NCBI GenBank assembly: GCA_017430675.1
Contig: JAFRMM010000011.1
Location: 1 to 35,205 of the forward strand
From: Prevotella sp.
GTDB taxonomy: Bacteria; Bacteroidota; Bacteroidia; Bacteroidales; Bacteroidaceae
Direction of reading: 5' to 3'
DNA: 35,205 bases
Made by a program: the position numbers and the translations under genes. This document shows positions 10,146 through 34,291 of this stretch, one piece after another. The notes under the pieces are model-generated. The model was not told the origin of the DNA, did no database searches, and saw only the letters and a list, made by a program, of their open reading frames with translations. How positions within the stretch are numbered: position 1 is the first letter of the stretch; every line of letters begins with the position of its first letter.

Positions 10146-10177
10146 GAAAGAAGTATATACCTTAATTGTTTTATCAG

Positions 10178-19004: not shown

Positions 19005-19005
19005 T

Positions 19006-19809: not shown

Positions 19810-20729
19810 AATATCTGGTTAAAATAATGAAGGAGCCAATGATGGCTCTGATCTATCTGATGGTATTGACCGCCAGGTTATGGCCAGCAGAATGGTACAT
19901 AAGGTTGTTTTATTACTTGCATCTGAAGAAGTGGCCTAATTTGAAGCATCCCCGTACCTTTAATGAAAAACTGAACTGGTTGAAACTCCATGACCGTAAT
20001 CCCCTCTATACTCGGTTGGCAGACAAGTATGAAGTGAAGAGATATGTGAGTGAGAAGATTGGAAGCGATAAGGTGATTCCCTTGCTGGGTGTTTGGGATT
20101 CATTTGACGAAATAGACTTTGATAAACTGCCAGAGCAGTTTATCCTAAAATGCACCCATGACTCAGGTGGTTTTGTCATTTGTAAAGACAAGAAAGCATT
20201 TGACAAGGAGAGTGCCAGGACATTCTTCAGGAAAGAACTCAAGAAGAATTTCTATTGGAACAAACGAGAGTGGGTCTATAAGAACATCAGACCAAGGATA
20301 ATAGCCGAGAAATTCATTGACTCATTAGGAAAGCCGGAATCGTATGAGTATAAACTGACATGTATGAACGGTGAATGTAAGGTTTTCACGGTTTGTACTG
20401 GCATTGCGCATAGTGATTTCGAACTGAGGACGAATGACAATTTTGATCGTGAGTTTAACCATTTGCCTTGGTATGCTTTTTATAAGAATTCAAAAACGCC
20501 TGTAGAAATACCTGCTCAGGCTGAAGAGATGATAAGGTATGCGGAAAAACTCTCTGAAGGAATCACACAGGTCAGGGTTGACTTCTACGTTATCGACGGA
20601 CATGTCCACTTTGGTGAAATGACCTTTTATACATGGGCAGGATTGATTGAATTCATACCACCAGAGTGGGATGATATCATGGGTAGTTGGCTAAGGCTGG
20701 ACACGGATGCTGAAAAAGGTGTCGATTGA
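19806..20729 (+). CDS. TupA-like ATP-grasp glycan-modifying protein
   Basis: This is a 307-residue protein of the TupA-like ATP-grasp type found in polysaccharide loci. Motifs typical of that family are FNEKLNWLKLHDRNPLYTRL, LADKYEVKRYVSEKIG, FILKCTHDSGG (ATP-binding loop), RIIAEKFI, and near the end DFYVIDGHVHFGEMTFYT, carrying the acidic metal ligands. An amphipathic or hydrophobic N-terminal segment (about 10-35) may bring it to the membrane. ATP-grasp members ligate a carboxylate to an amine, so an amide-type decoration of the sugar is plausible; the substrate is not known. It overlaps the Wza-like gene by 4 bp and the flippase gene by 23 bp. Confidence 0.8.
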   Translation: MKYLVKIMKEPMMALIYLMVLTARLWPAEWYIRLFYYLHLKKWPNLKHPRTFNEKLNWLKLHDRNPLYTRLADKYEVKRYVSEKIGSDKVIPLLGVWDSFDEIDFDKLPEQFILKCTHDSGGFVICKDKKAFDKESARTFFRKELKKNFYWNKREWVYKNIRPRIIAEKFIDSLGKPESYEYKLTCMNGECKVFTVCTGIAHSDFELRTNDNFDREFNHLPWYAFYKNSKTPVEIPAQAEEMIRYAEKLSEGITQVRVDFYVIDGHVHFGEMTFYTWAGLIEFIPPEWDDIMGSWLRLDTDAEKGVD

Positions 20730-21963
20730 GAGAAACCGGGGCATATTCCAGAATATATCGTATATTACTGTCCTTCAGGTGTTCAATGTGATAGCACCAT
20801 TGATAACCTATCCATATCTGGTAGATGTCTTAGGACGGGATCTGTATGGTGTATTTATTACCGCCCAAGCCCTTGTATATTATTTTTCTTTGTTCATTGG
20901 GTGGGGGTCGGACAATGTATGTGCTAAATATGTTTCCATTTATAGAAGTGACAAGCGTAAGTTATCCGAAATCTTCAGTTCTGTTCTTTCTGTGAGGGCA
21001 GTTGTCTGGATTGTAGGACTGGGAGTTTATATATTATTTGTACTCTTGATGCCGACTTATCGGCAGTATTACTTGCTATTCCTTCTGACGTACGGCATGA
21101 CATTGTATGATGTGCTATTCCCGCAATATTTGTTTCAAGGGCTTGAGAAGATGAAATATGCAACTTTTGTTGTCATAGGTGTAAAACTGTTTTTCATCAT
21201 ACTGATATTTGGAGTCGTCAGGGAACGGACGGATGTTTATATGGTACCTTTGTTATATTCAATCGGATACTTGTTAGGCGGAATAGCATCACTCTATATC
21301 GTTTTTTCTCTGATTGGCTTAAAACTGATGAATACGGGTAGAAAGATTTCTGGTTTTTTGGTGAAAGAATCCTTTCCTATTTTTGCATCAGATTTGATAA
21401 CAACCATCAAGGACCGATTCAATATATTATTAATGGGCAGTTGTATCGGTATGGGAAATGTGGTGATATATGATCTCGCCATGAAAATAAACCTTCTGAT
21501 AGCCAAGCCTACGGAGATACTACGAATTGCTTTATTCCCGAGGGCTGCGAAGGACAGGGATCTGTCGATGATACGGAAAACTATACTTGTCTCGTTCGTG
21601 ACCGCAACATTGCTTGTAACTGTCGTGAATATATTTCTTCCTTATATTGTCAGGTTTTTCTTGAATGAAGATATCGACCTGTTGCCAATCAGACTGTTTA
21701 CTCTGGCTCCTATTTTGTTGTCAATAAGTGTGCTGATAGCATTTAATGTGTTTGTGGCTTTTGGATATAATAGATATGTATTGAACAGTATTATAATTAC
21801 GACATCCTGTTATGTGTTCCTGCTTGTTTCCTGTGCCTTTACCCATCATCTGAATACCCTGTTGACATTTGTGATGATTTCCGTCATTTCATACTTTGTG
21901 GAATTCGTATATCGTTTGGTGAAATATAAAAAAATAGTATGTGAACTTGCACCTCAGGGATAA
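20707..21963 (+). CDS. Wzx-type oligosaccharide flippase
   Basis: This 418-residue integral membrane protein of the MATE/PST flippase superfamily moves lipid-linked repeat units across the inner membrane. About 11-12 hydrophobic segments are seen. The start resembles the family (FQNISYITVLQVFNVIAPLI and PYLVDVLGRDLYGVFITAQAL). A mid-protein TTIKDRFNILLMGSCIGMGNV segment and the IAKPTEILRIALFPRAAK stretch also fit. The region is clearly more AT-rich than the flanking chromosome, as expected for a capsule-specific gene. The start overlaps the previous coding sequence, and the polymerase gene begins 3 bp after its stop. Confidence 0.88.
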   Translation: MLKKVSIERNRGIFQNISYITVLQVFNVIAPLITYPYLVDVLGRDLYGVFITAQALVYYFSLFIGWGSDNVCAKYVSIYRSDKRKLSEIFSSVLSVRAVVWIVGLGVYILFVLLMPTYRQYYLLFLLTYGMTLYDVLFPQYLFQGLEKMKYATFVVIGVKLFFIILIFGVVRERTDVYMVPLLYSIGYLLGGIASLYIVFSLIGLKLMNTGRKISGFLVKESFPIFASDLITTIKDRFNILLMGSCIGMGNVVIYDLAMKINLLIAKPTEILRIALFPRAAKDRDLSMIRKTILVSFVTATLLVTVVNIFLPYIVRFFLNEDIDLLPIRLFTLAPILLSISVLIAFNVFVAFGYNRYVLNSIIITTSCYVFLLVSCAFTHHLNTLLTFVMISVISYFVEFVYRLVKYKKIVCELAPQG

Positions 21964-21966
21964 CGT

Positions 21967-23082
21967 ATGCATCTGTTTTATTATCTTTTCTTCCTGGAGA
22001 TCCTTATAGCCGTTGCTGCCTATACGAATGTGACTGAGTATGTCTTCATGCCTGTCAAGCAGCGAACGGTTCAATATCTGAGTGATCATCGACAGGAGAT
22101 TTATCTGATGGTTGCATTAGGGGTGATGCTATTCTTCCATGCCTTCCGTGATCCTTTGTCTTTGGTAGATACTCCGGAGTATTACAGTGCATGTGGAGAA
22201 GCAAGACTCATGTCATGGGGTGATGTGATAAGCAAGGGATATGTGGAATTGAAGACGGAAACGGGATTTGCTCTTCTTCTGAAACTTATCGTCGATGTCT
22301 TCCGTTCTCCGCAGATGCTCTTTATCATTACAAGTGCCTTTATGTTCTTCGTGCTATATGATTCCATCCGACGCTATTCGACCATTTATTGGTTCTCGGT
22401 ATTGGTATTCATGGTAGATTCGTTTGCCCAGTCATTGTTTATTTTAAGAGGGTTCATGGCACTGTTTGTTTTTCTGCTCTCATTCCCTTTTATCCTAAAA
22501 AGACAGATCCTGCCATTCCTTCTGCTGAGCATATTGGCCTTTTCTATCCACATGACGTCAATTGTGTTTATCCCTGTATATTTTCTGTATGGGATAAAAA
22601 ATGCCAAGTATCTGGCATTACTACTTGTCAGTGGCCTGGTCATAGTAGTCTTGGGATTTGAGTTGATCCTACCCTTGATTGTTGAGAACCTATTGTCCAA
22701 TTATACCTATTATCTGTTGGCAGCAGAAGAGTATGAAGGCGGGAATTGGAAGATGCCAGCCCTCCTTTCTTTTATCCTAATCTTCAGGATTATGGTCATG
22801 AGGGAGCATTTCTTTGAAGAGGGAATTAACAGATTATGTTCTATTGCACTGATATTTGCTATTGCTCTTTATGTGGCAGGCATGGGATTCGGACTGATCA
22901 ATAGAATAGCATTGTATTTTTCAAATCTTACATTTCTCATCTTGCCAAATACGGTTCAATATCTGCGCTCCTCTACTTTACAGTTTGTGGTTTGTTTGGT
23001 TTATATACTGTTTAGTGGTTTTTTCTTCTTGAATAGTGCATCAGACGTTCTTTGGGTGGATTATCAACTGATAAAGATATAA
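21967..23082 (+). CDS. EpsG-family polysaccharide polymerase (Wzy-like)
   Basis: This is a 371-residue polytopic membrane protein with about 10 predicted spans, of the EpsG type that polymerises repeat units at the periplasmic face. Features seen: LSLVDTPEYYSACGEARL in the first periplasmic loop (the family has a D-x-x-x-Y-Y-like motif there), the FILRGFMALFVFLLSFPF helix with its Arg, and ILAFSIHMTSIVFIPVYFL with the His often found in this family. Sequence is poorly conserved among polymerases, so the call rests on topology, these local motifs and the position between the flippase and glycosyltransferases. Its TAA stop shares a base with the next ATG (TAATG at 23080-23084). Confidence 0.82.
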   Translation: MHLFYYLFFLEILIAVAAYTNVTEYVFMPVKQRTVQYLSDHRQEIYLMVALGVMLFFHAFRDPLSLVDTPEYYSACGEARLMSWGDVISKGYVELKTETGFALLLKLIVDVFRSPQMLFIITSAFMFFVLYDSIRRYSTIYWFSVLVFMVDSFAQSLFILRGFMALFVFLLSFPFILKRQILPFLLLSILAFSIHMTSIVFIPVYFLYGIKNAKYLALLLVSGLVIVVLGFELILPLIVENLLSNYTYYLLAAEEYEGGNWKMPALLSFILIFRIMVMREHFFEEGINRLCSIALIFAIALYVAGMGFGLINRIALYFSNLTFLILPNTVQYLRSSTLQFVVCLVYILFSGFFFLNSASDVLWVDYQLIKI

Positions 23083-23861
23083 TGGGAAGGATTGTTGTCT
23101 ATACCGCCATCTTTAATGATTATGACTGGTTGAAAGATCCAGTTATCGTATCTGACGGTGTGGATTACATCTGCTATACAGATTCAGACCGTGTCAGGTC
23201 GGTTATCTGGAGAATAGTTAAAGTAAATACAAATGGGCAATCACCATCTTTACTGAATAGGAGAATTAAGTTGCTGTATCCTTATACGGAGTTGAAAGAC
23301 TATGACTATTCAATATATGTGGATGGATCCATCATGGTAAAAGGCGATGTCAATGAGTTCCTGGGAAAGTATCTCCCGTTAAATCCTGTTCTGATGAATT
23401 TCAGGCATCCCCATAACAACTGTATTTATGAGGAAATTAAACGTTGTATCCAACAGGGACGGGGTGATGCCGATAAATTGCAGGAGCAATATACAAGATA
23501 TCTGAGTGAAGGCGTACCTGCCGAATTTGGGTTGTCTGATAATAAGATCCTTCTTCGTGACAATCATAGTGAACTTGGCAAGCAACTGATGGAGGAATGG
23601 TATGATCAGGTCGTTAGTTATTCAGGTCGTGACCAGGTATGCCTCTCCTACGTTCTATTCAGACACCAGTTGCCCTATTCTTTTTTTGAAGAGAATATTG
23701 AGAAAAACGGTTATTTCGAGAACTGGCCCCACAACACGGTGGAGTGGTATATACGGTATTGGAGACGCTTTAAGTGGTTTTGCGAAAGGCATCATCTGCT
23801 TGGCGGACTGATCCGTTATGTGGATGATCAGATTAAGCCCAGGGTGTTGGTGCGTATATGA
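23082..23861 (+). CDS. DUF616-type glycosyltransferase
   Basis: This is a 259-residue soluble enzyme of the DUF616/TOD1-like glycosyltransferase type. The ATG at 23082 is preferred over an in-frame ATG at 23052 because it overlaps the preceding stop and begins right before the family's first strand (GRIVVYTAIFNDYDWLKDP). Further marks are YICYTDSD, NRRIKLLYPYTEL, the metal-site-like DYSIYVDGSIMVKGDV, RHPHNNCIYEE and GRDQVCLSYVLFR. These match the expected order of nucleotide-sugar fold, acidic motif and C-terminal acceptor region. Donor and acceptor sugars cannot be read from sequence. It overlaps the next gene by 4 bp (ATGA). Confidence 0.78.
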   Translation: MGRIVVYTAIFNDYDWLKDPVIVSDGVDYICYTDSDRVRSVIWRIVKVNTNGQSPSLLNRRIKLLYPYTELKDYDYSIYVDGSIMVKGDVNEFLGKYLPLNPVLMNFRHPHNNCIYEEIKRCIQQGRGDADKLQEQYTRYLSEGVPAEFGLSDNKILLRDNHSELGKQLMEEWYDQVVSYSGRDQVCLSYVLFRHQLPYSFFEENIEKNGYFENWPHNTVEWYIRYWRRFKWFCERHHLLGGLIRYVDDQIKPRVLVRI

Positions 23862-24676
23862 TGGATAAGCCATTTTATGAAATCGTCTTTGTCGTTCTTG
23901 TGTATAGGAACACACAGGTGCTACATGACTTTTTTGCGTCTCTGGCCTTACCTTTTACCTATCGGGTTATTATAGTCAATAGTTTCTATGACAGCATGAC
24001 AGAACAGGCGTGCCGTTCTGTCGCTATGGATCATCATGCAGATTTCATATCTGTTCCCAACAAAGGATATGGAACGGGAAATAATGTGGGGTGTCAGTAC
24101 GCGGTGGATCATTACGGCTTCCGTTTCTTGGCTTTGTCTAATTCCGATATAGTCATTCAGGACATAGAAGTCCTGTCAAAAATGAAAAAAACGAGAGCCG
24201 TATATGCTCCAGACACCAGAATGGAGAATGGGCACCGTCAGAATCCACATATCCCTGTCAGGTTCGGATTCTATCTGAAGTTGTTGGATCTTTCATACCG
24301 ATATAAAAGCGAGGAACTGATGTCTGTAGCCTTTGCCGTCAATCGTGTTGTCAGAGAATTGTTCGTGTTATGGACAAAATTGTCAGGCGGAAAGATGGTC
24401 AGGGTTTTCTCTGCGCATGGTTCCTTTATTATATTGACCTGTCAGGCAGTACAGGAGTTGATGCCGATATTCAACGAGAAGATGTTTCTTTATAATGAGG
24501 AACTGTATCTTGCCCACCGATGCAAGTTATTGGGAATCCCTGTCTATTACGTGCCTAAGTTGAGAGTCCTTCATCTGGAAGGGGCCAGTTCTACTTCGGC
24601 AAGCAGTGCCTGGCAGAATCATGAAGACTCATACAATGTCTTGAATAGATGGATGCGTGAGAATCAACTCATGTAA
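23858..24676 (+). CDS. Family 2 glycosyltransferase
   Basis: This is a 272-residue GT-A fold enzyme related to rhamnosyltransferase-like GT2 proteins. The N-terminal EIVFVVLVYRNTQVLHDF strand-helix, the PNKGYGTGNNVGCQYA nucleotide-sugar segment, and ALSNSDIVI in the place of the DxD motif are all present. A C-terminal MFLYNEELYLAHRCK segment carries the acidic catalytic-base region, and YYVPKLRVLHLEGAS is the conserved late His motif. It adds one sugar to the lipid-linked repeat unit on the cytoplasmic side; the sugar is unknown. It is translationally coupled to the preceding gene. Confidence 0.85.
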   Translation: MMDKPFYEIVFVVLVYRNTQVLHDFFASLALPFTYRVIIVNSFYDSMTEQACRSVAMDHHADFISVPNKGYGTGNNVGCQYAVDHYGFRFLALSNSDIVIQDIEVLSKMKKTRAVYAPDTRMENGHRQNPHIPVRFGFYLKLLDLSYRYKSEELMSVAFAVNRVVRELFVLWTKLSGGKMVRVFSAHGSFIILTCQAVQELMPIFNEKMFLYNEELYLAHRCKLLGIPVYYVPKLRVLHLEGASSTSASSAWQNHEDSYNVLNRWMRENQLM

Positions 24677-24695
24677 TGGTTCCCTGCTGTCTCTG

Positions 24696-25910
24696 ATGAG
24701 AAAGAAGAGTGTGCTTTTGGTCTGTGGCGTTTTTTATCCGGAACCGGTCGTGTCGGCCCGGATTCAAATGGATCTTGCCATCAAACTGGCAGAGAACCAT
24801 AAGGTGACGGTACTTCGTCCTCATCCTACCCGACCGAAAGGTTTTGTGATGCCAGATTACGATTATTCTCATCTCCCCTTTGAGATCAAGGAAATAGATT
24901 CATACACCTGTCCTGCATCAACCATCACCGGAAGATTCAGGGAGAGTGTTAGTCATGGACTTACCTGTGCCAAGTATATCCGCCAGCACCATGACGAGAT
25001 AGATTTCATATATGATGACTCGTGGCATTTGTTCGGTGTCTATCTTGTAGCCAAGGCGGCGAATAGGTACAGAATACCTTATATAACACCCGTTCAGGAT
25101 ATCTATCCAGAATCTCTTGCTTCCAAGATGCCGGAATCATCATGGTTGAAGAGACTTGTCATTCAATTGCTGTTGCCAATAGACCGCTATTCTCTTTCAC
25201 ATGCGGCACGGATTCAGACGAACTCGGAGAAAATGGCTGATTACCTGTCTGAAACCAGAAAAATTAGGAGAGACAGATTCGTCGTTGTCAGGAATTGGCA
25301 GGATAATCAGGAATTTATGGATTACGCCAAGCATACTGATGGCAGAACTGCAGATGCCCCCTTTACCTTTATGTATATGGGAAATGTGGGAATGTTGGCT
25401 GGTATTGAGGTGCTGTTTGATGCTTTCTCTTTGGCAGATTTGAAAGATGCTAGACTGGTGATTGCAGGATCTGGTCCAGCAAAAGAATTTTTGCAAAAGG
25501 AAGCAGGTTCCTATTCTCAAAGAATAGAGTTCTGGGAAGTCCCATCAGGCAAGGTTCCTGAGGTTCAGTCTCAGGCCGACGTGATGTTGCTCCCTGTTAA
25601 GAAAGGCTCTGCAAGATTCTCCGTACCCAGCAAATTGGTTGCGTATATGTTCTCCGCCAAACCAATTATAGCCAGTGTTGATGAAGATAGTGACACTGCT
25701 CTATGTGTAGAGGAGAGTGGGGCAGGGTGGCGTGTGGCCCCAGAGAATGCCACCACATTGTCGATGGCTTTTCAACAGGCTTTTCATTCCCATAGAGAGG
25801 TCTTGCATAAGATGGGGACATCAGGTTTGGGATATGCATCCCGAGTGTTTTCCAAAGAAAGAAACCTGGCAATCCTGGTTAAAGCCATTGAAGAGGTTTT
25901 AGTCTCCTGA
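24696..25910 (+). CDS. Family 4 glycosyltransferase, WbuB-like
   Basis: This is a GT-B fold glycosyltransferase of about 404 residues. The ATG at 24696 is chosen because it directly precedes the Rossmann strand KKSVLLVCGVFYPEP; a GTG at 24657 would add 13 residues and overlap the previous gene by 20 bp, and cannot be excluded. The N-domain holds VVSARIQMDLAIKLAENHKVTV. The C-domain has the GT4 pattern: FMYMGNVGMLAGIEVL, RLVIAGSGPAKEFL, and PSKLVAYMFSAKPIIASVDEDSDTA around the E-x7-E-like donor site. The YPESLASKMPESSW segment is typical of WbuB-like (aminosugar-adding) enzymes, so a HexNAc donor is possible. Confidence 0.85.
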   Translation: MRKKSVLLVCGVFYPEPVVSARIQMDLAIKLAENHKVTVLRPHPTRPKGFVMPDYDYSHLPFEIKEIDSYTCPASTITGRFRESVSHGLTCAKYIRQHHDEIDFIYDDSWHLFGVYLVAKAANRYRIPYITPVQDIYPESLASKMPESSWLKRLVIQLLLPIDRYSLSHAARIQTNSEKMADYLSETRKIRRDRFVVVRNWQDNQEFMDYAKHTDGRTADAPFTFMYMGNVGMLAGIEVLFDAFSLADLKDARLVIAGSGPAKEFLQKEAGSYSQRIEFWEVPSGKVPEVQSQADVMLLPVKKGSARFSVPSKLVAYMFSAKPIIASVDEDSDTALCVEESGAGWRVAPENATTLSMAFQQAFHSHREVLHKMGTSGLGYASRVFSKERNLAILVKAIEEVLVS

Positions 25911-25921
25911 TTTTAGGGTAT

Positions 25922-27010
25922 ATGCTACATACTTTTTTTGAACTGATACAAGTATCTCTTGTCCAGAGGCAGGCATTGAGTTCGCTTCCATCGCCAGAAG
26001 AATGGCAGGAGTTGTTTAGTATTGCAAAGAAACATGGTCTGATGGGCATAGCCTATCATGGAGTGGAGCAATTGCGCGAGCAAGGGTATAAACCGCCTCG
26101 GGAATTACTTCTCAAATGGTTTGCTGCTTGTGAAAAGATCAGGAAGCGCAGTGCCATAATGAATACCAGAAGTAAAGAACTCCTCGATCGTTTACAGGTA
26201 GCAGGTTTCCATCCTACGATTTTGAAAGGTCAGGGCATCGCAAAGTATTATGACGGGCCCCTACAAGACTTGAGGCTATCAGGAGATATAGATGTCTATG
26301 TCAATTGTAATTGGAAAGACGCTATTGAATATGCCAAAAGCCTTGGTCAGGAAAAGGTGCATTGGGACTACAAACACCTGCACTTGAAGATATGGAAGGA
26401 TACCGCGGTAGAGTTTCATTACCATCCGGAGATTATGTTGAACCCGATAAAAAACAGGCGACTTCAGTCTTTTTTCAAACAAAATGAAGAACTCTTGTTC
26501 CATGAAGATGGCGAACTTGTAACTCCGAATGTTACCATGAACCTTTTCTATGTTCTATTGCATATTTATAGGCATTTTCATGGCAGTGGAATTGGACTAC
26601 GTCAATTAATTGACTATTATTTTGTGCTCCGCACTGCCAATGGTAATTATGGCAGTTACTGCCATCACGAATCTATCAATGCCTTGCTGGAAAGGTTTGG
26701 TATGCTTCGTTTTGCAAGGGGAGTGATGTGGGTGTTGCAAGAAATGACAGGACTGGAACGTCAATACATGTTCTGCGAACCCCTTGAGAGTGAAGGTCGG
26801 TTTATATTAAATGAGATATCTGTGGCAGGAAACCTCGGACGATATGATAAGCGATATGGTTCATTAAAAAAGTATGGGAAGTTGGGTGAGTTGGTCTCTA
26901 TTATCAGACATAGTTCCCATCTATTGAGGCATTACCCGTCAGATGCTCTCATGGCACCTGTCTGGTATGTATGGCATAAATGTTGGATGCTGAAGAATAC
27001 GAATAAATAA
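25922..27010 (+). CDS. NTP_transf_5-type nucleotidyltransferase-like protein
   Basis: This is a 362-residue protein of the 'uncharacterised nucleotidyltransferase' (NTP_transf_5) type. The catalytic-site signature is seen as ILKGQGIAKYYDGP, then LRLSGDIDVYV, giving the G-x-D-x-D-like acidic pair. A helical C-terminal half contains MNLFYVLLHIYRHFHGSGIGL and LRQLIDYYFVL, usual for this family. Its substrate is not established. I recall members often lying beside PqqD-like, HprK-like and S26-type genes, and exactly those three genes lie 4 kb downstream here. It may therefore belong to the peptide cassette more than to sugar assembly, despite sitting in the EPS operon 11 bp after the GT4 gene. 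Confidence 0.82.
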   Translation: MLHTFFELIQVSLVQRQALSSLPSPEEWQELFSIAKKHGLMGIAYHGVEQLREQGYKPPRELLLKWFAACEKIRKRSAIMNTRSKELLDRLQVAGFHPTILKGQGIAKYYDGPLQDLRLSGDIDVYVNCNWKDAIEYAKSLGQEKVHWDYKHLHLKIWKDTAVEFHYHPEIMLNPIKNRRLQSFFKQNEELLFHEDGELVTPNVTMNLFYVLLHIYRHFHGSGIGLRQLIDYYFVLRTANGNYGSYCHHESINALLERFGMLRFARGVMWVLQEMTGLERQYMFCEPLESEGRFILNEISVAGNLGRYDKRYGSLKKYGKLGELVSIIRHSSHLLRHYPSDALMAPVWYVWHKCWMLKNTNK

Positions 27011-27012
27011 AT

Positions 27013-28086
27013 ATGTTGAATTTTACGATTGGCCCAGTGATGATGGGTGATGCCGTGAGGTGTATAGGCTCTGGGCAGATTCCATACTTCAGAACAACAG
27101 AATTCTCGGAAGTGATGTTCGAGAATGAAAGGCTGATGAAAAAACTAGCGAAATCAGGGGAACATTCCCGAGTGGTTTTCGTTACGGGTTCTGGAACGGC
27201 TTCTATGGAAGCATCTGTCATGAATTTGTTTACGAAAGAAGACCGACTGCTCATCATCAATGGAGGAAGTTTTGGTGAACGATTCTGTAAAATATGTGAA
27301 ATACACGAGATTCCTTATACAGAGATTAATCCTGCATTGGGCAGAAATGTCACAGAAGAGATGTTGTTGCCGTATGAAGGTCAGGGCTTTTCAGGTTTTC
27401 TCGTGAACCTGAATGAGACTTCTACGGGCGTTTTGTATGATATAGAACTTATCAGTGACTTTTGCCGGCGCAACAATATCTTTCTTGTAGTCGATTCTAT
27501 CAGTTCTTTTCTGTGTGATCCCTTTGATATGGAAAGACTGGATGTCCAGGTGATGATAACTGGTTCACAAAAGGCTTTGGCTTGTCCTCCAGGCATTTCC
27601 GTGATTGTGTTATCAGAGAAGGCGGTCATGAGAGTAAACGCTCATCATGTCAGGTCGATGTATTTAGATTTAAAGGATGCGCTAAAAGATGGAGAGAGGG
27701 GACAGACTCCGTTTACGCCTGCTGTTGGAACTATACTACAAATCAATGCACGTCTGAAAGAGATTGATGCTGTTGGTGGCGTCGCGACCGAGATCCAACG
27801 GGTCGGTATGCTGGCTGAGGATTTCCGGACGAAGATAAAGGGGCTTCCTTTTGAGATAATATCTGAGTCCTTGTCAAATGCTGTGACACCCCTTCATCCG
27901 TTGACAACTTCTGCCTATGACATTTATACTATCCTGAAGAATGATTATGGAATATGGGTATGCCCTAACGGTGGCGTATTACGTGAGAAAGTATTTCGAG
28001 TTGGCCATTTAGGGGACTTGACTATAGATGATAACTCAAAGTTGATTGAGGCTTTTGAGGATTTACGAAACAGACATATTATATAA
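27013..28086 (+). CDS. Class V PLP-dependent aminotransferase (PhnW/AGAT-like)
   Basis: This 357-residue fold-type I PLP enzyme resembles alanine-glyoxylate and 2-aminoethylphosphonate aminotransferases. The start FTIGPVMMGDAV is the family opening (normally TPGP). FVTGSGTASMEA is the phosphate-binding loop, LVVDSISS gives the pyridine-N Asp (Asp161), and TGSQKALACPPG carries the Schiff-base Lys (Lys187). Arg residues in the C-terminal FRVGHLGDLT motif also fit. No PEP mutase or phosphonopyruvate decarboxylase is in the window, so a phosphonate product is not supported. With the cytidylyltransferase and polyol-phosphate transferase that follow directly, amination of a small ketose or polyol phosphate precursor is more likely. 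This is inference from neighbours. Confidence 0.85.
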   Translation: MLNFTIGPVMMGDAVRCIGSGQIPYFRTTEFSEVMFENERLMKKLAKSGEHSRVVFVTGSGTASMEASVMNLFTKEDRLLIINGGSFGERFCKICEIHEIPYTEINPALGRNVTEEMLLPYEGQGFSGFLVNLNETSTGVLYDIELISDFCRRNNIFLVVDSISSFLCDPFDMERLDVQVMITGSQKALACPPGISVIVLSEKAVMRVNAHHVRSMYLDLKDALKDGERGQTPFTPAVGTILQINARLKEIDAVGGVATEIQRVGMLAEDFRTKIKGLPFEIISESLSNAVTPLHPLTTSAYDIYTILKNDYGIWVCPNGGVLREKVFRVGHLGDLTIDDNSKLIEAFEDLRNRHII

Positions 28087-28088
28087 TA

Positions 28089-29444
28089 ATGAAAAAGGTA
28101 ATAACATACGGAACATTCGATTTGCTCCACAATGGGCATATACGTTTGTTGGAGAGAGCAAAGGCCTTGGGGGATTTTCTGATCGTTGGAGTGACGGCAG
28201 ACTCTTTCGATATGGTCAGAGGGAAGATCAATGTACAGCAGTCTTTGATGGAACGTATGGAAGCGGTCAAAGCGACAGGACTGGCTGATGAAGTTATTGT
28301 TGAAGAGTATGAAGGCCAGAAGATAGATGATATCGTCAGGTATAATATTGACGTGTTTGCCATAGGATCTGACTGGGTTGGCAAGTTTGACTATCTGAAT
28401 GAGTTCTGTCATGTCGTCTATTTGGAAAGGACAGAGGGCATCTCCAGTACAAAATTGCGTACAAATGGCCAGATTGTCCGGATTGGGGTCGTCTGTGATG
28501 AAAATGAATTTAACCTGATGTTTAAATTCGTAGAAGAGAGCCGTTTTGTCAATGGAGTCGCTGTTGATGCTATTTGTGTCCCTGAATTATCTATGATAGA
28601 TAAAACCTTTAGTGATTTGCCTGTTATCACTGACGATTATTGCAAACTGTTGGATAAGGTGGATGCAGTGTATGTCCTTTCGCATCTTGATAAACACTAC
28701 TCTCATATCAAAAAGGCATTGGAGGCGGGCAGACATGTCTTATGCGAGTCTCCGATGACCCGGTCCGTTGATGAGTGGGATGAGGTGACGGAGTTAGCAC
28801 ATTCGAGGGGCCTTGTGCTAATGGATGCTATTCGTACGGCCTATTCTACAGCCTATTATCGAATGCAACTATTGGTAAAGAGTGGTTTTATTGGCAAGAT
28901 CGTCTCTATAGATGCTTCATGTAGCAGTCTCCAGAAACAGAATGAGGGACTGAATACGGGGGGCAAATGGAGTGGCAGTTTATCCTCATGGGGACCAAAT
29001 GTGCTTCTTCCTGTTTTCCAGTTGTTGGGGACAGATTATAGAAATAAGCAAATATGTTCCATGTTCAAAGAAAACGGGGGCGATGGTTTCGACCTGTTTA
29101 CTAAGATATCCTTTGAGTTTCCTCATGCCGTTGCATCTGTAAAGGTGGGGAAAGGTGTAAAGACAGAGGGTGATCTTGTCATCTCGGGAACAGAGGGCTA
29201 TATCTATGTCCCTGCTCCTTGGTGGAAAACAGATTATTTTGAGATTCGAAGAGAGGATCCGACGCGGAATAAACGCTATTTCTATCAATTAGACGGAGAA
29301 GGAATACGATATGAAATCATATCTTTTATCAGAGAAATAAATCACAAGAAAGGTCTTTTATATATTACTGAAGAAGTATCCAAGAGCATAGTCAAAGTCA
29401 TGGAGGATTTCTATGTGAGAAAAGAATTTATTAAATTAGTATAG
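28089..29444 (+). CDS. Cytidylyltransferase fused to a Gfo/Idh/MocA oxidoreductase-like domain
   Basis: This is a 451-residue two-domain protein. Residues 1-125 are a TagD/GCT-like cytidylyltransferase: YGTFDLLHNGH (HxGH at 14-17) and RTEGISSTKLR (114-124), the CTP-binding signatures, so it should make a CDP-activated alcohol phosphate. From about 130 the chain resembles a Gfo/Idh/MocA dehydrogenase, with a Rossmann-like half and ALEAGRHVLCESPMTRS. Two key features of that family are off: the nucleotide-binding Gly motif reads GVVCDENE, and the catalytic Lys of the EKP motif is Ser (ESP, 220-222). The second domain may therefore be non-catalytic or use other chemistry. It lies 2 bp after the aminotransferase and 20 bp before a TagF-like gene. 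Confidence 0.85.
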   Translation: MKKVITYGTFDLLHNGHIRLLERAKALGDFLIVGVTADSFDMVRGKINVQQSLMERMEAVKATGLADEVIVEEYEGQKIDDIVRYNIDVFAIGSDWVGKFDYLNEFCHVVYLERTEGISSTKLRTNGQIVRIGVVCDENEFNLMFKFVEESRFVNGVAVDAICVPELSMIDKTFSDLPVITDDYCKLLDKVDAVYVLSHLDKHYSHIKKALEAGRHVLCESPMTRSVDEWDEVTELAHSRGLVLMDAIRTAYSTAYYRMQLLVKSGFIGKIVSIDASCSSLQKQNEGLNTGGKWSGSLSSWGPNVLLPVFQLLGTDYRNKQICSMFKENGGDGFDLFTKISFEFPHAVASVKVGKGVKTEGDLVISGTEGYIYVPAPWWKTDYFEIRREDPTRNKRYFYQLDGEGIRYEIISFIREINHKKGLLYITEEVSKSIVKVMEDFYVRKEFIKLV

Positions 29445-29464
29445 AAATATTGATTTGTAAGTTT

Positions 29465-30631
29465 ATGCATGTATCTCGAGCAAAAATAGATTATGAATTG
29501 AAACATCACAGTAGGGCGTTATCCCTCTTCAGGCTCCTCGCGAATACTATTATGCGTATTTGGGGAGTGTTTGTGTGGACTGATGATAAGATGGTCTTGT
29601 TCAGTTCTTTGGGAAGACGGTATAACGATAGTCCGAAAGCCATTTATGAATATATGATCAGCCAACCCAGATTCAGGGATTATAAGTTTGTGTGGGCATT
29701 GGAAGAAATGGATACCGAAATTCCTGGAAATCCACTGAAAGTCAAGGCTGATTCCATTAGGTACTTTATGCTTTCACTGAAAGCCCATTACTGGATAACG
29801 AGTGTGAATATAGAACGCAGTTTAAGGTATAAGAAAAAGGACTGTATCTATCTGAATACATGGCATGGGGTACCACTGAATGCTGTTGGCAATGCTGTTC
29901 CTGGGCGTCATGAATTTGATTATAGTCATCTGAATTTCCTCTGTTACGAGAGCGATTGGAGTAAGAAGGTTTATATGCAGAGTTTCAAGGTCCCCGAGCA
30001 CTTAATGCTGGCAAGCGGACTTCCCAGGAATGATGTGCTATATCATGTGGATAATACCAAGGTTGTGGCCCTGAAAAAGAAACTGGGGCTTCCATTGGAT
30101 AAGAAGGTTATTCTTTATGCCCCGACATGGAGAGACAGCAACGATCAGGGAAAGACCTATTCCCTCAAGCCTCCTATTCATCTGGACAAATGGGAAAAGA
30201 GACTGAAAGATGAATATGTCCTTCTGTTCAGGACTCACCATTACACAACTCTTCTGTTGGGAGTACAGTTCAATGATTTTGTCCGTGATTACTCTTCATA
30301 TCCAGATATCAATGATCTGTTTATGGTGAGCGACCTGCTGATTTCTGATTATTCATCCTGTATAACGGACTTCTCCATCCTGGAACGGCCCATTATCTGC
30401 TTTGCATACGATTATGATACATATTCAAAACAGCGTGGGGTAAATATTGATTTCCAGAAGGAAATGCCTGGTGGTATTCAGAGAACGGAAGAAGAAGTGT
30501 TAGACCGTATCCTGACGATGGATACAGAGGAAGAATGTCGTAAGACGCGAGAGATGTTGAAGGATAAGTTTACCTATATAGGTGGTCATGCCACGGAGAT
30601 ATGTGTAAACGCTGTATTTGGAGATGAATGA
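29465..30631 (+). CDS. CDP-glycerol glycerophosphotransferase family protein (TagF-like)
   Basis: This enzyme of about 388 residues transfers a polyol-phosphate group from a CDP-polyol to a glycan, here probably at the cytoplasmic face. Family motifs in order are IYLNTWHGVPL, LASGLPRNDVL, VILYAPTWRDS, LLFRTHHY, DINDLFMVSDLLISDYSS and GGIQRTEEEV. The catalytic His pair expected in TWHG and RTH is present. Residues about 20-35 (LFRLLANTIMRIWGVFVW) may be a membrane-associating helix. The ATG at 29465 is used; a TTG at 29450 is an alternative. It is the last gene of the EPS operon. With the preceding cytidylyltransferase it forms an activation-and-transfer pair. Confidence 0.87.
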   Translation: MHVSRAKIDYELKHHSRALSLFRLLANTIMRIWGVFVWTDDKMVLFSSLGRRYNDSPKAIYEYMISQPRFRDYKFVWALEEMDTEIPGNPLKVKADSIRYFMLSLKAHYWITSVNIERSLRYKKKDCIYLNTWHGVPLNAVGNAVPGRHEFDYSHLNFLCYESDWSKKVYMQSFKVPEHLMLASGLPRNDVLYHVDNTKVVALKKKLGLPLDKKVILYAPTWRDSNDQGKTYSLKPPIHLDKWEKRLKDEYVLLFRTHHYTTLLLGVQFNDFVRDYSSYPDINDLFMVSDLLISDYSSCITDFSILERPIICFAYDYDTYSKQRGVNIDFQKEMPGGIQRTEEEVLDRILTMDTEEECRKTREMLKDKFTYIGGHATEICVNAVFGDE

Positions 30632-30682
30632 TTGGCAAAGCAGAAAAAATGGCGGTGTGATGTAAAAAAATCGTGATTTTAT

Positions 30683-30713
30683 TTGGATGTTTCAGAAAAA
30701 CTTCTTATCTTTG
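30683..30713 (+). promoter_or_regulatory. Dedicated promoter for the small peptide gene
   Basis: A -33 TTG at 30683-30685, a 20-bp spacer and a -7 box TATCTTTG at 30706-30713 make a full-consensus Bacteroidota promoter. An AT-rich leader of about 40 nt follows before the ATG at 30759. A 135-bp gene with its own strong promoter and terminator is expected to be abundantly transcribed. Confidence 0.8.
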
Positions 30714-30758
30714 CCACCAAATTTATACATTAAACGTTTAATTAAAATTTTTTAGAAC

Positions 30759-30893
30759 ATGAAAAAGCAGTATTTAACTCCGGAAATGGAGGAATTCAAG
30801 TATGAGATTCCCAACCTCTTTGGTGAGGGTGAAACTGAGGGTGAAGGTGAAGGCCTCGGTGGAAGTGGTACAGAGGGTGATAACGCCGAGTAA
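30759..30893 (+). CDS. 44-residue Gly/Glu-rich peptide, candidate modified-peptide precursor
   Basis: This short gene begins MKKQYLTPEM and ends LGGSGTEGDNAE. The first 21 residues look like a leader, with a YxxPxM motif at residues 5-10. That resembles the YxxPxL leader motif bound by PqqD-like recognition elements in lasso peptide systems. The remaining 23 residues are almost entirely Gly and acidic residues (Glu at every second or third position), with only Thr26, Ser36 and Thr38 as hydroxyl residues and no Cys, Lys or aromatics. It has a consensus promoter 45 bp upstream and a terminator 25 bp downstream. It faces a PqqD/S26/HprK-like operon. No known precursor family is recognised. Many unrelated Bacteroidales peptides also begin MKK-x-Y-x-x-P, so the precursor role is inferred mainly from context. 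Confidence 0.7.
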   Translation: MKKQYLTPEMEEFKYEIPNLFGEGETEGEGEGLGGSGTEGDNAE

Positions 30894-30917
30894 TTGGAGC
30901 CTCATTCTAGAGACAAG

Positions 30918-30946
30918 CAGGGGATATGCATCAGACATATCCCCTG
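30918..30946. terminator. Hairpin terminator between convergent genes
   Basis: An 11-bp stem (CAGGGGATATG with CATATCCCCTG) encloses a 7-nt loop and is followed by a T-rich stretch on the plus strand. It lies 25 bp after the peptide gene and 17 bp from the end of the opposing PqqD gene, so it may serve both transcripts. Confidence 0.7.
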
Positions 30947-30962
30947 TTCATTTTATATCATC

Positions 30963-31235
30963 TCAATCCTCAATCATGTCATAGTTGCGCCATTTCTCTA
31001 ACAAGGCTGTGACATCTTTTAGGGCGACGGCCTTGTCTGCATCATATTCCTCACACAGTGCTGCCACTAACGATTCGACGGTGAAATCGCCTTGCTTGAC
31101 AGCATATCGCCAAAGGGCTGCCGTCGTCTCATTGGCAACCAACATCTTACCAAAGTTGACAGATCCCAGTTCTTCTGCGCAAATCACTTGTTCTCCACAT
31201 ACATCGCGCAGGATAAATCCTTTTTTTAATCTCAT
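30963..31235 (-). CDS. PqqD-family peptide-recognition protein
   Basis: This 90-residue protein has the PqqD/RRE plan: three N-terminal strands (LKKGFILRDVCGEQVICAEE in part), a 'N-E-T-x-x-x-LW' turn (VANETTAALWRYAV) that is the hallmark of PqqD-like folds, and a winged-helix half (FTVESLVAALCEEYDADKAVALKDVTALLEKW in pieces). Such domains bind the leader of a ribosomal peptide and present it to modifying enzymes. It is the last gene of a three-gene minus-strand operon and overlaps the peptidase gene by 4 bp. Its 3' end converges on the small peptide gene. Confidence 0.87.
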   Translation of the reverse strand: MRLKKGFILRDVCGEQVICAEELGSVNFGKMLVANETTAALWRYAVKQGDFTVESLVAALCEEYDADKAVALKDVTALLEKWRNYDMIED

Positions 31236-31660
31236 ATTCTTCTATAAATTGCTAATAAGTATCTTCGTATAGGTAACAAGAGGTACCAGCATTTTGCTCC
31301 AATCATTCTCCACCATGTGTAAAGGAATCTTTTATGCCCTTGGTTGTCAACGACGTGGGTGACGCGCGCCTTGATGTCTGAGATGAGACAGTGCTCCCTG
31401 CTGGCAAGGTTCCCGTCACCCATCAGTATGACATGGTCATCTGTGATGGCAAGGATACGATGAATAACGTATCTGTGATCATCAACCCATGCCAAAACAA
31501 CGTCACCACGCCTGACCTTGACTGCCTTCTCCATGATCACGCTTTCTTTTCCTCCTACGATGAAGGGCAGCATACTCTTCCCGTCGGCTGGCATGGTAAC
31601 GCTGATGCCTTCATCGACTAGGCGAATCGCCTCTTGTAATATAGGGTAATCTTCCTTCAT
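31232..31660 (-). CDS. S26-type (Ser-His) signal-peptidase-like protease
   Basis: This is a 142-residue member of the S24/S26 peptidase superfamily. The nucleophile motif is DGKSMLPFI (Ser29). The second motif RRGDVVLAW is followed by RYVIHRILAI, where His67 takes the general-base position. This is the Ser-His arrangement of the archaeal/SipW-like S26B group rather than the Ser-Lys of bacterial LepB. A later MGDGN motif matches the conserved Gly-Asp box. There is no N-terminal membrane anchor; the C-terminus is hydrophobic and basic (YTWWRMIGAKCWYLLLPIRR) and could associate with membrane. In this context it is a candidate for cleaving the leader from the modified peptide. It overlaps both neighbours by 4 bp. 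Confidence 0.85.
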   Translation of the reverse strand: MKEDYPILQEAIRLVDEGISVTMPADGKSMLPFIVGGKESVIMEKAVKVRRGDVVLAWVDDHRYVIHRILAITDDHVILMGDGNLASREHCLISDIKARVTHVVDNQGHKRFLYTWWRMIGAKCWYLLLPIRRYLLAIYRRI

Positions 31661-32529
31661 CCTTCAATGGTTGATTGACATAGTCTGGCTGCTGCCTCAT
31701 CAGGCAAGCATTCCAAGAACCAGATAGGAACCTTCTGTGCCATGAAATTGACCGTCTGATAGAGATGATCCGCCAGATGCCGATCCCATGTCATACGGGA
31801 CGCACTGGTCTTGATGACTATATAAGAGTCGATGCCTTTCACACGCTGAATCTTATTGGCGGGGGCCTGTTTTAGTTTGACAATACCGCCAAGGGGGTAT
31901 TTCACATTCCGATAGCAGGGGGTCTTACCGCTCCAGGGCGATCCGAACACATAGGCACTTCCATCTTCATATACACGCACGACGGGATTGTCATCATTGA
32001 TTAGTTCAGAACCTTCGATATGTTGGAGCCAGAGTCGGGCATGGGTGCTCTTGCCAGTGCCGCTGACACCTAGGAACATATAGCCGTGTCCATGGTGACT
32101 CACTACTGCAGAGTGGAACAGAAGGGTATGATAGGGCATCGTGCTAAAGGCAAACATGGCCATTAGTGCATTGTTGAGGGAAAACTTCGTAGCGTAGCCT
32201 GTCACGAACAGATCCCCTTTGGAAAAATCCCTTGGACAAGTCAGCCAACTGGCTAAACGGTCGTGTAACAGGAATTGTAATACATATTCCTCATCGGTCG
32301 TGTGGCCGAATAGGATTGTATAGTCTTCTTCATTTTGCCGATAGTCTTCAATGAAGTTCTCTATGGGCTTCTGGGTCTGATGGATATGGAGATTGAAGAC
32401 CTCCTTGGATGTGCTCTTGTCAGCCAGAAATGGCTCGTACTGTGTCATAAAGGAAAATATGGACTCTTCCGCTTCTACAGAGAAGCCATGCTCCGCTACT
32501 ATATAGTATTTTCTCATTGTATCATCCAT
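31657..32529 (-). CDS. HprK-like / PEP-carboxykinase-fold kinase
   Basis: This is a 290-residue P-loop protein related to the C-terminal kinase domain of HPr kinase. Features seen: LLFHSAVV before the P-loop, GVSGTGKSTHARLW (Walker A at 154-162), ELINDDNPVVR (acidic second motif, 175-185), a GSPWSGKTPCYRN loop and GGIVKLKQ. The N-terminal 130 residues have no HPr-binding domain. Standalone HprK-like kinases occur in modified-peptide clusters; the one in the paeninodin lasso cluster phosphorylates a core serine. Ser or Thr in the nearby peptide is therefore a candidate target. It is the first gene of the minus-strand operon. A second in-frame ATG at 32517 is an alternative start. Confidence 0.82.
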   Translation of the reverse strand: MDDTMRKYYIVAEHGFSVEAEESIFSFMTQYEPFLADKSTSKEVFNLHIHQTQKPIENFIEDYRQNEEDYTILFGHTTDEEYVLQFLLHDRLASWLTCPRDFSKGDLFVTGYATKFSLNNALMAMFAFSTMPYHTLLFHSAVVSHHGHGYMFLGVSGTGKSTHARLWLQHIEGSELINDDNPVVRVYEDGSAYVFGSPWSGKTPCYRNVKYPLGGIVKLKQAPANKIQRVKGIDSYIVIKTSASRMTWDRHLADHLYQTVNFMAQKVPIWFLECLPDEAAARLCQSTIEG

Positions 32530-32560
32530 GATGATATTTAATTATTTTCAAAAATCGCTG

Positions 32561-32598
32561 CAAAATTAGTAAAAATCCATCAAAAAGTATTATCTTTG
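32561..32598. promoter_or_regulatory. Divergent promoter region between kinase operon and ABC exporter
   Basis: On the plus strand TATCTTTG at 32591-32598 is a consensus -7 box for the exporter gene, but its -33 region (32566-32570, TTAGT) is poor. On the minus strand TAATTTTG (complement of 32561-32568) matches TAnnTTTG and could serve the kinase operon. The minus-strand -7 box overlaps the plus-strand -33 region, so the two promoters may compete or share a regulator. The whole 115-bp spacer is AT-rich. Confidence 0.5.
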
Positions 32599-32644
32599 CC
32601 CAATAATTTGAGATTTGTACTAGCATAATTAGGAATTATTATCT

Positions 32645-34291
32645 ATGAGATACCTCAGTTGGCTGTGGCGCAATACGAAGGGAATACGGTTGAATACCCT
32701 TATTCGTATCGTAGTGGGGATCCTGAGGATTGCCTTCGGCCTGATGATGGTCTGGTTCTGCCGTCAGTTCATCGATGTCACCATCAGGAAAGGGACTGAT
32801 GGGGACATCATCCGGATGATTATGATATTGGTTGTTACCGTGATGGGAGGTATCCTATTGCGACAACTCTTTTTCTACATGAGCAAACAGGCGGATGTTC
32901 ACCAGACCAATCTGATTCGCATACGTATTTTCAGACGGCTTTTCTCTCGCGGACTGTATGACGGTAGTGAATTCCACTCAGGAGATATTTCATCCCGACT
33001 GGCGAAAGATATTGAGGTGGTAAGTGATGCGACAACCAATATTATCCCCCAGATTATTGTAACGGGTAGTCAGTTGCTTGGCGCTTTCCTATTGATGCGT
33101 TCCATGGATGCCAGACTGGCGTGGATGCTCCTGCTATCTACACCTGTAGCCATTCTTTTCGCCAAGATCATAGCGCGAAAACTGAGGGAGATGACCCTTG
33201 AGATCCGAAAGGAGGAGAGCCGCATCCAGATGCAGATACAGGAAACGATGGAGCATAATGCTGTCCTGCGTTCATTGAGGAGTGAACAGTGGGTAACGAA
33301 GAATTTGGAGGCCAAACAAGAACGTTTGAAATGCCAGGTCCTGCGGCGCACTCGTTTTACGATTGTGACACGTGTCATCTTTGCCTCTGTTTTCGGACTT
33401 GGCTATTTGTTGGCATTTGTCTGGGGAGGATTACAGTTAAGGAACGGTGCCATCACCTTTGGTGTCATGACTTCTTTCCTGCAACTTGTCAGCCAGATCC
33501 AGAATCCTATTCTCACCTTGTTGAATACGGTACCTCAGTTGATAAATGCAACAGCAAGTGTTGACAGGCTGGAAGAACTCGAAGATTGTGAAACTGGTAT
33601 TGATCCTGTCGTCTATCAGTGGGCGCTTCCTCCCGTATCTACAACACTGGGGCTACGTTTGGACGATGTGAGTTTTCATTATGCTAACAGCGACATGCAG
33701 GTCCTGCAGCACGTCACGCATTCTTTTGAACCGGGCAGTAAGACTGCGTTGATGGGTCCCACAGGCATTGGCAAGACGACACTCTTCCGATTGATGCTGG
33801 CGCTGGTCAAACCAGACTATGGTAAGGTGGCTGTTTTTCATGGTGACCGTGAGTTCCTGGTTTCTGACAAGACGCGTGACTATTTCGTGTTTGTGCCGCA
33901 GGGCAACACGTTGATGAGTGGCACAGTGAGGGATAACTTGTTGTTGGCAAAGCCTGACGCCACAGAGCAAGAATTGAGAAATGCGCTCCATACTGCTGCC
34001 GCTGATTTCGTATTTGACATGCCTGACGGTCTGGATACGGAGTTAGGAGAGCGTGCATCTGGACTCAGTGAAGGACAGGCTCAGCGGGTGGCTATAGCAA
34101 GGGGGATTTTAAGGCCGGGATCTATTCTCTTGTTGGATGAGATCAGTTCTTCCTTGGATGAGCAGACGGAGAAAGAACTTTTCAGTCGCCTGTTCTCCGC
34201 ATACCCTGAAAAGACGATGCTGTTCATTACTCACCGCCCTGCTGTCAGCGAGTTGTGCAACCATATCCTGAGACTTGATTCCTTTTTTTAG
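32645..34291 (+). CDS. ABC exporter, fused membrane and ATPase domains
   Basis: This is a 548-residue half-transporter that forms a homodimeric exporter in the inner membrane. The N-terminal type IV (exporter) membrane domain has about six spans within residues 1-300, with the typical SGDISSRLAKDIEVVSDATTN-like loop (in part) and an LLNTVPQLINATASVDRL connector. The ATPase domain runs from about 335 to 548: Walker A GPTGIGKTT (Lys377), Q-loop VPQGN, signature LSEGQ (474-478), Walker B ILLLDE (Asp498), D-loop SSLD and H-loop THRP (His530). There is no N-terminal C39 peptidase domain, so the leader would have to be removed by another protease, consistent with the neighbouring S26-like enzyme. 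It is divergent from the kinase operon. Confidence 0.88.
   Translation: MRYLSWLWRNTKGIRLNTLIRIVVGILRIAFGLMMVWFCRQFIDVTIRKGTDGDIIRMIMILVVTVMGGILLRQLFFYMSKQADVHQTNLIRIRIFRRLFSRGLYDGSEFHSGDISSRLAKDIEVVSDATTNIIPQIIVTGSQLLGAFLLMRSMDARLAWMLLLSTPVAILFAKIIARKLREMTLEIRKEESRIQMQIQETMEHNAVLRSLRSEQWVTKNLEAKQERLKCQVLRRTRFTIVTRVIFASVFGLGYLLAFVWGGLQLRNGAITFGVMTSFLQLVSQIQNPILTLLNTVPQLINATASVDRLEELEDCETGIDPVVYQWALPPVSTTLGLRLDDVSFHYANSDMQVLQHVTHSFEPGSKTALMGPTGIGKTTLFRLMLALVKPDYGKVAVFHGDREFLVSDKTRDYFVFVPQGNTLMSGTVRDNLLLAKPDATEQELRNALHTAAADFVFDMPDGLDTELGERASGLSEGQAQRVAIARGILRPGSILLLDEISSSLDEQTEKELFSRLFSAYPEKTMLFITHRPAVSELCNHILRLDSFF

Follow-up and report, generated by a model that had tools for sequence, protein, structure and literature searches.

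A predicted maturation and export cassette for linear phosphopeptides in Prevotella, with dispersed precursors in its relatives that are often encoded behind proteins with type IX secretion-like tails

We analyzed a 35,205-nucleotide (nt) stretch of contig JAFRMM010000011.1 from a Prevotella sp. (assembly GCA_017430675.1), hereafter the window, which codes for a compact five-gene cassette: a short peptide, a recognition element (RRE) of the kind that serves ribosomally synthesized and post-translationally modified peptides (RiPPs), a signal-peptidase-like enzyme of the S26B type, an HprK-like kinase, and an ATP-binding cassette (ABC) transporter. This cassette is probably a machine for the maturation and export of linear phosphopeptides and the Bacteroidota counterpart of the Linear Polyphosphorylated Peptide (LPP) pathway of Bacillota, described from the lpp biosynthetic gene cluster of Paenibacillus alginolyticus (Nat Commun 20 May 2026; PMC13381572). 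The computed support comprises the gene content, conserved active sites, folds, a leader motif, a near-invariant Ser in the peptides, the linkage of the peptides to proteins with a conserved C-terminal tail, and the association of that tail with sprA. The association of precursors with proteins bearing tails like those of the type IX secretion system (T9SS) is the new element of the find; in the literature searched on type IX secretion, RiPPs, LPPs, and lasso peptides, we found no description of such a link. All five genes were confirmed in the region 30683–34291, where the initial annotation had placed them:

30682..30713, + strand: Bacteroidota-type promoter of the peptide gene, TTTG-N20-TATCTTTG (pattern scan)
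30759..30893, + strand: precursor peptide of 44 amino acids (aa), with leader MKKQYLTPEMEEFKYEIPNL containing the YxxP motif (open reading frame (ORF) and profile)
30916..30948, no strand: terminator-like inverted repeat separating the convergent peptide and pqqD genes (stem-loop)
30963..31235, − strand: discrete RRE of the PqqD family (PF05402)
31232..31660, − strand: S26B (signal-peptidase-like) putative leader peptidase, S29/H67/D82 (residues)
31657..32529, − strand: HprK-like kinase (fold and motifs; PF27840 in relatives)
32645..34291, + strand: MsbA-like ABC exporter with no peptidase domain (family scan)

The peptide gene converges on the pqqD–S26–kinase genes with the stem-loop between them, and the ABC and kinase genes point away from each other. 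The promoter pattern TTTG-N20-TAnnTTTG has two matches in the window against 0.45 expected; both the promoter and the terminator that had been claimed for the peptide gene were thus recovered. A structural model of the RRE resembles TbiB1 and TfuB1, which are lasso RREs with a leader bound, and its profile detected TfuB1 (E 0.0017) and PbaB1 (E 0.016) in a copy of the PDB; the single RRE sequence returned nothing useful from the solved structures. RRE residue D74 is invariant among 28 aligned RREs; at the aligned position, TfuB1 has an Asp and PbaB1 a Gln. The residue of LppB that bonds the leader Tyr is described as an Asp, and those of PbaB1 at its Trp as Gln/Glu (PMC13381572); from the alignment, D74 would occupy this very position.

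The putative leader peptidase, originally read as a Ser-His enzyme of the S26B type, has a Ser-His-Asp set (S29, H67, and D82) that is invariant in 70 of 70 relatives and on which, and not on a family cut-off, its assignment rests. Its matches among solved structures were confined to LexA, signal peptidase IB, and a phage sheath protein, all at E > 0.005. The kinase displays the PEPCK/HprK fold with motifs invariant in 80 of 80 relatives, and precomputed Pfam assignments place listed relatives in PF27840. Its family is very large, as 7964 of the 8000 scored candidates from a database search are homologues at E <= 0.001; a sequence search of solved structures gave nothing useful, and no relative was confirmed in the viral contigs scanned with the single kinase sequence. 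The exporter is MsbA-like and lacks a peptidase domain, in agreement with the initial annotation.

The fold of the RRE, being that of the lasso B1 type, is what might be expected of a lasso-like or otherwise cyclised RiPP with its cyclase encoded elsewhere in the genome, and kinases and nucleotidyltransferases are reported to tailor lasso peptides as well (PMC7533575). However, the lasso B2 family PF13471 exceeded its cut-off in none of the 26 cassette genomes, with weaker matches in two of them, and the peptide cores, short, variable, and acidic as they are, showed by eye no ring acceptor at a fixed place. Neither a macrolactam synthetase nor a B2 leader peptidase was found among the 26 window ORFs scanned, with no genome-wide search made for macrolactam synthetase or radical SAM genes. 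We therefore regard a cyclised product as very unlikely. The earlier view of a peptide-maturation cassette with no adjacent cyclase holds well, in that the LPP pathway has the same parts; since the two match part for part, the phosphopeptide guessed at in that annotation now has an experimental precedent.

To place the cassette among its relatives, we took 80 loci, the best of 581 that were confirmed, all in GTDB genomes that carry record titles; they belong to Prevotella and other Bacteroidales and to Fibrobacter. Within 5 kb of the kinase, pqqD was present in 70 of these loci, S26 in 70, ABC in 63, and all four genes in 57, some loci being cut by contig ends; where at least 4 kb was available on each side of the kinase, all four genes were found in 47 of 59. 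An LPP-like cassette is thus present in Bacteroidota and Fibrobacterota, i.e., outside Bacillota. In the GTDB family of Segatella baroniae, the kinase was detected at E <= 1e-10 in 122 of 151 genomes (118 at E 1e-54 or better and four with distant matches only, E 1e-24 to 1e-29), and in a class-level draw it was detected in 11 of 295, five of these being weak (E > 1e-18). Some loci have unusual layouts. L001, L009, and L010 show a reduced form, with kinase and pqqD and neither S26 nor ABC nearby, close to polysaccharide-synthesis genes with a capsule-type nucleotidyltransferase-like gene (NTP_transf_5). L116 and L117 (genome G348) have three kinase-like genes in ~23 kb, surrounded by matches to pqqD, S26, ABC, and NTP_transf_5. 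L103 (G377) is a compact same-strand array of kinase, S26, RRE, NTP_transf_5, ABC, and peptide; the peptide core is long and rich in Gly and Asn, and the genome has no sprA match.

A first set of peptides was chosen by a YxxP-like pattern near cassettes and later extended by profile. The profile, built from 17 YxxP peptides, gave 32 peptides in 24 of 81 loci (23 of the 80 relatives plus the window), 17 of these 32 being its own seeds; the best of 61,236 shuffled ORFs reached E 0.58. The window peptide is the sole match in the window at E < 1 (E 1.7e-8). Of the five-gene co-occurrence that had been proposed, the part concerning the four proteins stands; a precursor, detected in these 24 loci, does not reliably lie near the cassette. 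The window leader motif is YLTPEM, and the core is acidic and rich in Gly and Glu. Among 126 unique peptides, the window one included, Tyr opens the leader motif in 120 and Met follows Px in 83, as it does in the window; the Pro is present by construction, since peptides were anchored on [YFW]xxP. A Ser lies at Y+17 to Y+22 in 121 of the 126. Two of the five without it (L096 and L119) were mis-anchored by the pattern, and the window peptide, L035, and L102 are true exceptions. Beyond Y+20, the region is acidic (23% D/E, 4% K/R). Relatives of the window peptide in the database share its leader and differ in the tail, in line with the variable C-terminal core that had been anticipated. As a separate observation, 34 of the 126 peptides have an AP (often LAP) motif in the core (e.g., L024, L043, L046, L053, L095, and L099), and several peptides whose loci include NTP_transf_5 in the cassette have LA as their last two residues; this AP/LA motif is possibly a recognition site of the nucleotidyltransferase.

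Our searches further showed that many precursors are dispersed over genomes. In each of 26 genomes that contain such loci, the precursor model (E <= 0.01) matched, with 2 to 29 matches per genome, the largest sets being spread on many contigs away from the cassette; at E <= 1e-4, it matched 49 of the 151 family genomes. From the longer lists of precursor matches, 97 peptides in 83 fetched regions were selected for a study of their upstream genes. First, 72 of the 97 have, within 700 nt upstream and on the same strand, a gene for a protein of at least 300 aa. Second, the upstream protein carries a tail motif of the type YxLxGxxxxxPxxKGxYIxNGKKxxIK in strict form for 52 peptides and in relaxed form for 63, compared to 21 and 48, respectively, of 586 same-size ORFs in L001–L080, a control that includes the cassette loci's own tail proteins. 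Three of the 97 peptides (L154 and L174) lie at cassettes, two being identical to cassette-locus peptides and one sharing sequence with L031; the strict count without these is 51 of 94. Third, 43 of the 52 strict tail–peptide pairs lie within 100 nt of each other. The cassette loci show the same arrangement: a tail protein precedes 25 of their 31 peptides, with 20 different proteins involved (read by eye). Loci such as L003, L011, and L058 have the genes arranged as tail protein, peptide, NTP_transf_5, kinase, S26, RRE, and ABC, and the same order is seen as far as S26 in L024, L043, L046, and L053.

The linkage was also apparent at the scale of whole genomes. Among the matches listed, 11 of 40 tail sites in G006 and 13 of 29 in G008 have a precursor in the next 300 nt, compared to 0.04 and 0.03 expected, or jointly 24 of 69 against 0.07; the test used 22 of 28 and 24 of 29 precursor matches, respectively, and its tail sites are DNA-pattern matches not individually confirmed as C-termini. 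The Fibrobacter genome G020 had no site of the tail pattern, the tails there being of another form. Of ten upstream proteins scanned, nine with the strict tail (the other being that of L090), seven contain LRR_5, Big_2, List_Bact repeats, chitobiase C-terminal, CBM77, or similar domains, and three have no domain at E <= 0.001. Among the neighbors of dispersed precursors (79 of 93 scanned), the List_Bact repeat (6) and LRR_5 (4) are the commonest.

The tail itself goes with sprA, which was detected in 15 of 16 genomes tested and in none of 14 controls, and over the 151 family genomes in 95 of 99 with the tail pattern and 16 of 52 without it. The NCBIfam model TIGR04183 was unmatched in the seven tail proteins scanned, although some tail-pattern sites overlap its matches, mostly below its cut-off; we therefore strongly infer a T9SS tail rather than claim a family match. 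The N-termini seen by eye suggest that the tail proteins are secreted. A linkage of sprA to the cassette itself was considered and rejected as a general rule, being found in just 1 of 81 loci (tblastn): in L027 (2391–9845), a sprA gene lies directly 5' of the kinase on the same strand, corresponding to the SprA match in G013.

Ahead of the cassette, the window also contains the following:

25922..27010, + strand: NTP_transf_5 nucleotidyltransferase-like gene within the capsule operon, a candidate LppN counterpart
16662..30631, + strand: capsule/exopolysaccharide genes, ending just 5' of the peptide gene
10166..16396, + strand: leucine-rich repeat/Big_2 protein of 2076 aa with the T9SS-like tail GWYTLGGQRIDKPTKKGLYIHNGKKVVVR

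The capsule/exopolysaccharide locus codes for Wzz, an export protein, a TupA-type ATP-grasp protein, a flippase, EpsG, glycosyltransferases, NTP_transf_5, an aminotransferase, a TagD-like/oxidoreductase fusion, and a TagF-like protein; the cassette follows it, and an asparaginase gene comes next. In its segment 27013–30631, the aminotransferase is closest to 2-aminoethylphosphonate aminotransferases (below cut-off), and the segment also includes the TagF-like gene and a fusion of a TagD-like cytidylyltransferase with a GFO/IDH oxidoreductase; the capsule perhaps bears a phosphate or phosphonate decoration. In a tree, the window NTP_transf_5 groups with capsule-type copies, which does not support it as a clear LppN. 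In 17 of the 80 related loci, NTP_transf_5 is one of the cassette genes on the same strand. The kinase, which had been suggested as the only modifier of a phosphopeptide, thus remains the likely primary modifier by the LPP precedent and need not be the sole one.

With this context in view, the four proteins could instead serve capsule or surface-polysaccharide synthesis, in sugar or lipid phosphorylation and export, with the small ORF incidental. The cassette abuts the capsule operon in the window, and kinase and pqqD adjoin polysaccharide-synthesis genes with a capsule-type NTP_transf_5 in L001, L005, L009, and L010, all but L005 being the reduced loci without S26 and ABC nearby. This explanation is quite unlikely in our estimate, given the discrete RRE of the leader-binding lasso type, the leader-peptidase-like S26B enzyme, and the YxxP peptides directly 5' of the NTP_transf_5–kinase genes in seven loci (L003, L011, L024, L043, L046, L053, and L058). 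Moreover, the glycosyltransferase and sugar-transferase families, among the 25 commonest of 129 families in the flanking proteins (98 of 217 scanned), have just two members each.

For the phosphopeptide machine, we propose the following course. The PqqD-type RRE would bind the YxxP leader, and the HprK-like kinase would phosphorylate a hydroxyl residue just past it, which is a Ser in almost every relative. The S26B peptidase would remove the leader from the RRE-bound precursor, and the ABC transporter would export the core; in some relatives, the phosphate may be further decorated by the nucleotidyltransferase-like enzyme. It is probable that the machine acts in trans on precursors encoded at many places. 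In the relatives, a precursor would often be the second gene of a small operon, the first coding for a large protein of the surface type that bears a T9SS-like tail, and because precursors so often stand behind such genes, the mature peptides probably have their role at the cell surface, with the tail proteins or the capsule. More tentatively, one could envisage that Bacteroidota and Fibrobacterota have a RiPP system that spans the genome and is coupled to type IX secretion: a single RRE–kinase–S26–ABC machine would serve many precursors, many of them encoded behind T9SS-delivered surface proteins, with each phosphopeptide (perhaps sugar-bearing via the nucleotidyltransferase) as the dedicated partner of its protein, which it might, e.g., anchor, help to fold or be sorted, or link to surface polysaccharide.

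Several results weigh against these proposals. The window peptide has Thr and no Ser at the usual acceptor place, and LppK is reported not to accept a Thr substitution (PMC13381572); with the acceptor Ser missing, phosphorylation of this peptide itself is not certain. It also sits behind the capsule operon and not behind a tail protein, and no precursor was found behind the window's own 2076-aa tail protein. The RRE profile did not match LppB (9x8z) in the PDB copy, in which the presence of 9x8z was unchecked. The tail linkage was not seen in G013 (0 of 4), G406 (0 of 2), G371 (0 of 1), and G022 (0 of 1), and G383 had 0 of 4 strict and one relaxed. Precursors were found near the cassette in under one third of loci. 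Finally, they occur in 46 of 122 kinase-positive and 3 of 29 kinase-negative genomes, a modest difference (p 0.004 by a Fisher test, which, like the others on genome co-occurrence, ignores relatedness), and in sprA-positive genomes only, in 39 of 100 with the kinase and 3 of 11 without. The last figures, by which the kinase matters little once sprA is present, together with the many peptides far from any cassette found, would suit a different explanation, namely that the dispersed YxxP peptides are partners of T9SS cargo with an unrelated maturation, sharing the leader motif by chance. We hold this to be unlikely, as the arrangement of a peptide behind a tail protein also prevails in the cassette loci, with the same leader and Ser.

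If the phosphopeptide reading is correct, phosphopeptide RiPPs may be common, and unnoticed, in one GTDB family of gut and rumen bacteria, given the kinase in 122 of its 151 sampled genomes. The pairing of precursors with tail proteins offers a testable function for this peptide class and a possible new element in the sorting, anchoring, or regulation of such proteins.

We found no description of an LPP-type cassette in Bacteroidota or Prevotella in the HprK, PqqD, and RRE literature searched. The main text of PMC13381572 does not mention Bacteroidota, Prevotella, or Fibrobacter; RiPP mining in Bacteroidales has stressed radical SAM/YcaO enzymes with C39 exporters (PMC10352776, whose accessible text contains neither "HPr" nor "nucleotidyltransferase"), and none of the terms searched occurs in the accessible text of PMC12710340. 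The HPr-rel-A, HprK-rel-B, and SynChlorMet cassettes of NCBIfam also have HprK-like proteins, with PqqD in HPr-rel-A, but all matches to these models were far below their cut-offs. With T9SS cargo (Por_Secre_tail, TIGR04183), the tail proteins share large size, a conserved C-terminal tail, and sprA-bearing genomes, whereas their tail is a short form and the companion peptide is not part of the TIGR04183 model. HprK, PqqD, and nucleotidyltransferase genes adjoin lasso clusters in rumen Firmicutes, and the pseudomycoidin nucleotidyltransferase is cited as associated with glycosylation (PMC7533575). Paeninodin-like lasso peptides (HprK kinase; pseudomycoidin PsmN) accordingly have in common with our system an RRE, an HprK-like kinase, and nucleotidyltransferase-like tailoring; in contrast, the cassette described here has no adjacent B2 peptidase or lasso cyclase, with S26B in place of B2, and its leaders are YxxP rather than WxxP.

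The closest system is the LPP pathway. In the account of PMC13381572, a heterologous host made a multiply phosphorylated linear intermediate, with LppK-dependent multiple phosphorylation of core Ser3 and a leader cut by LppS together with the RRE; its authors left open what the end product is, what the NTP transferase does, and what biological purpose is served. The two systems share a discrete RRE, a SipW-like Ser-His-Asp leader peptidase, an HprK-like kinase, an MsbA-like exporter, a YxxP leader with a Ser ~18–20 residues on, the lack of a cyclase, and a capsule neighborhood. Beyond YxxP, the leaders here do not follow the LPP consensus at every position. After YxxPx, the window YLTPEM has a hydrophobic residue as in LPP, but this is a Met, which is absent from the published list ([L/V/I/A/F/Y]). 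The consensus LPP acceptor is a Ser at Y+18 (PMC13381572), compared to the range of Y+17 to Y+22 here and the Thr of the window peptide. The NTP transferase gene is in the cluster in LPP, as in the 17 relatives with it in the cassette, whereas the window copy is in the capsule operon. While LPPs are said to be restricted to Bacillota (PMC13381572), the taxa here are Bacteroidota and Fibrobacterota, and their precursors are dispersed, often many per genome, and linked to proteins with T9SS-like tails.

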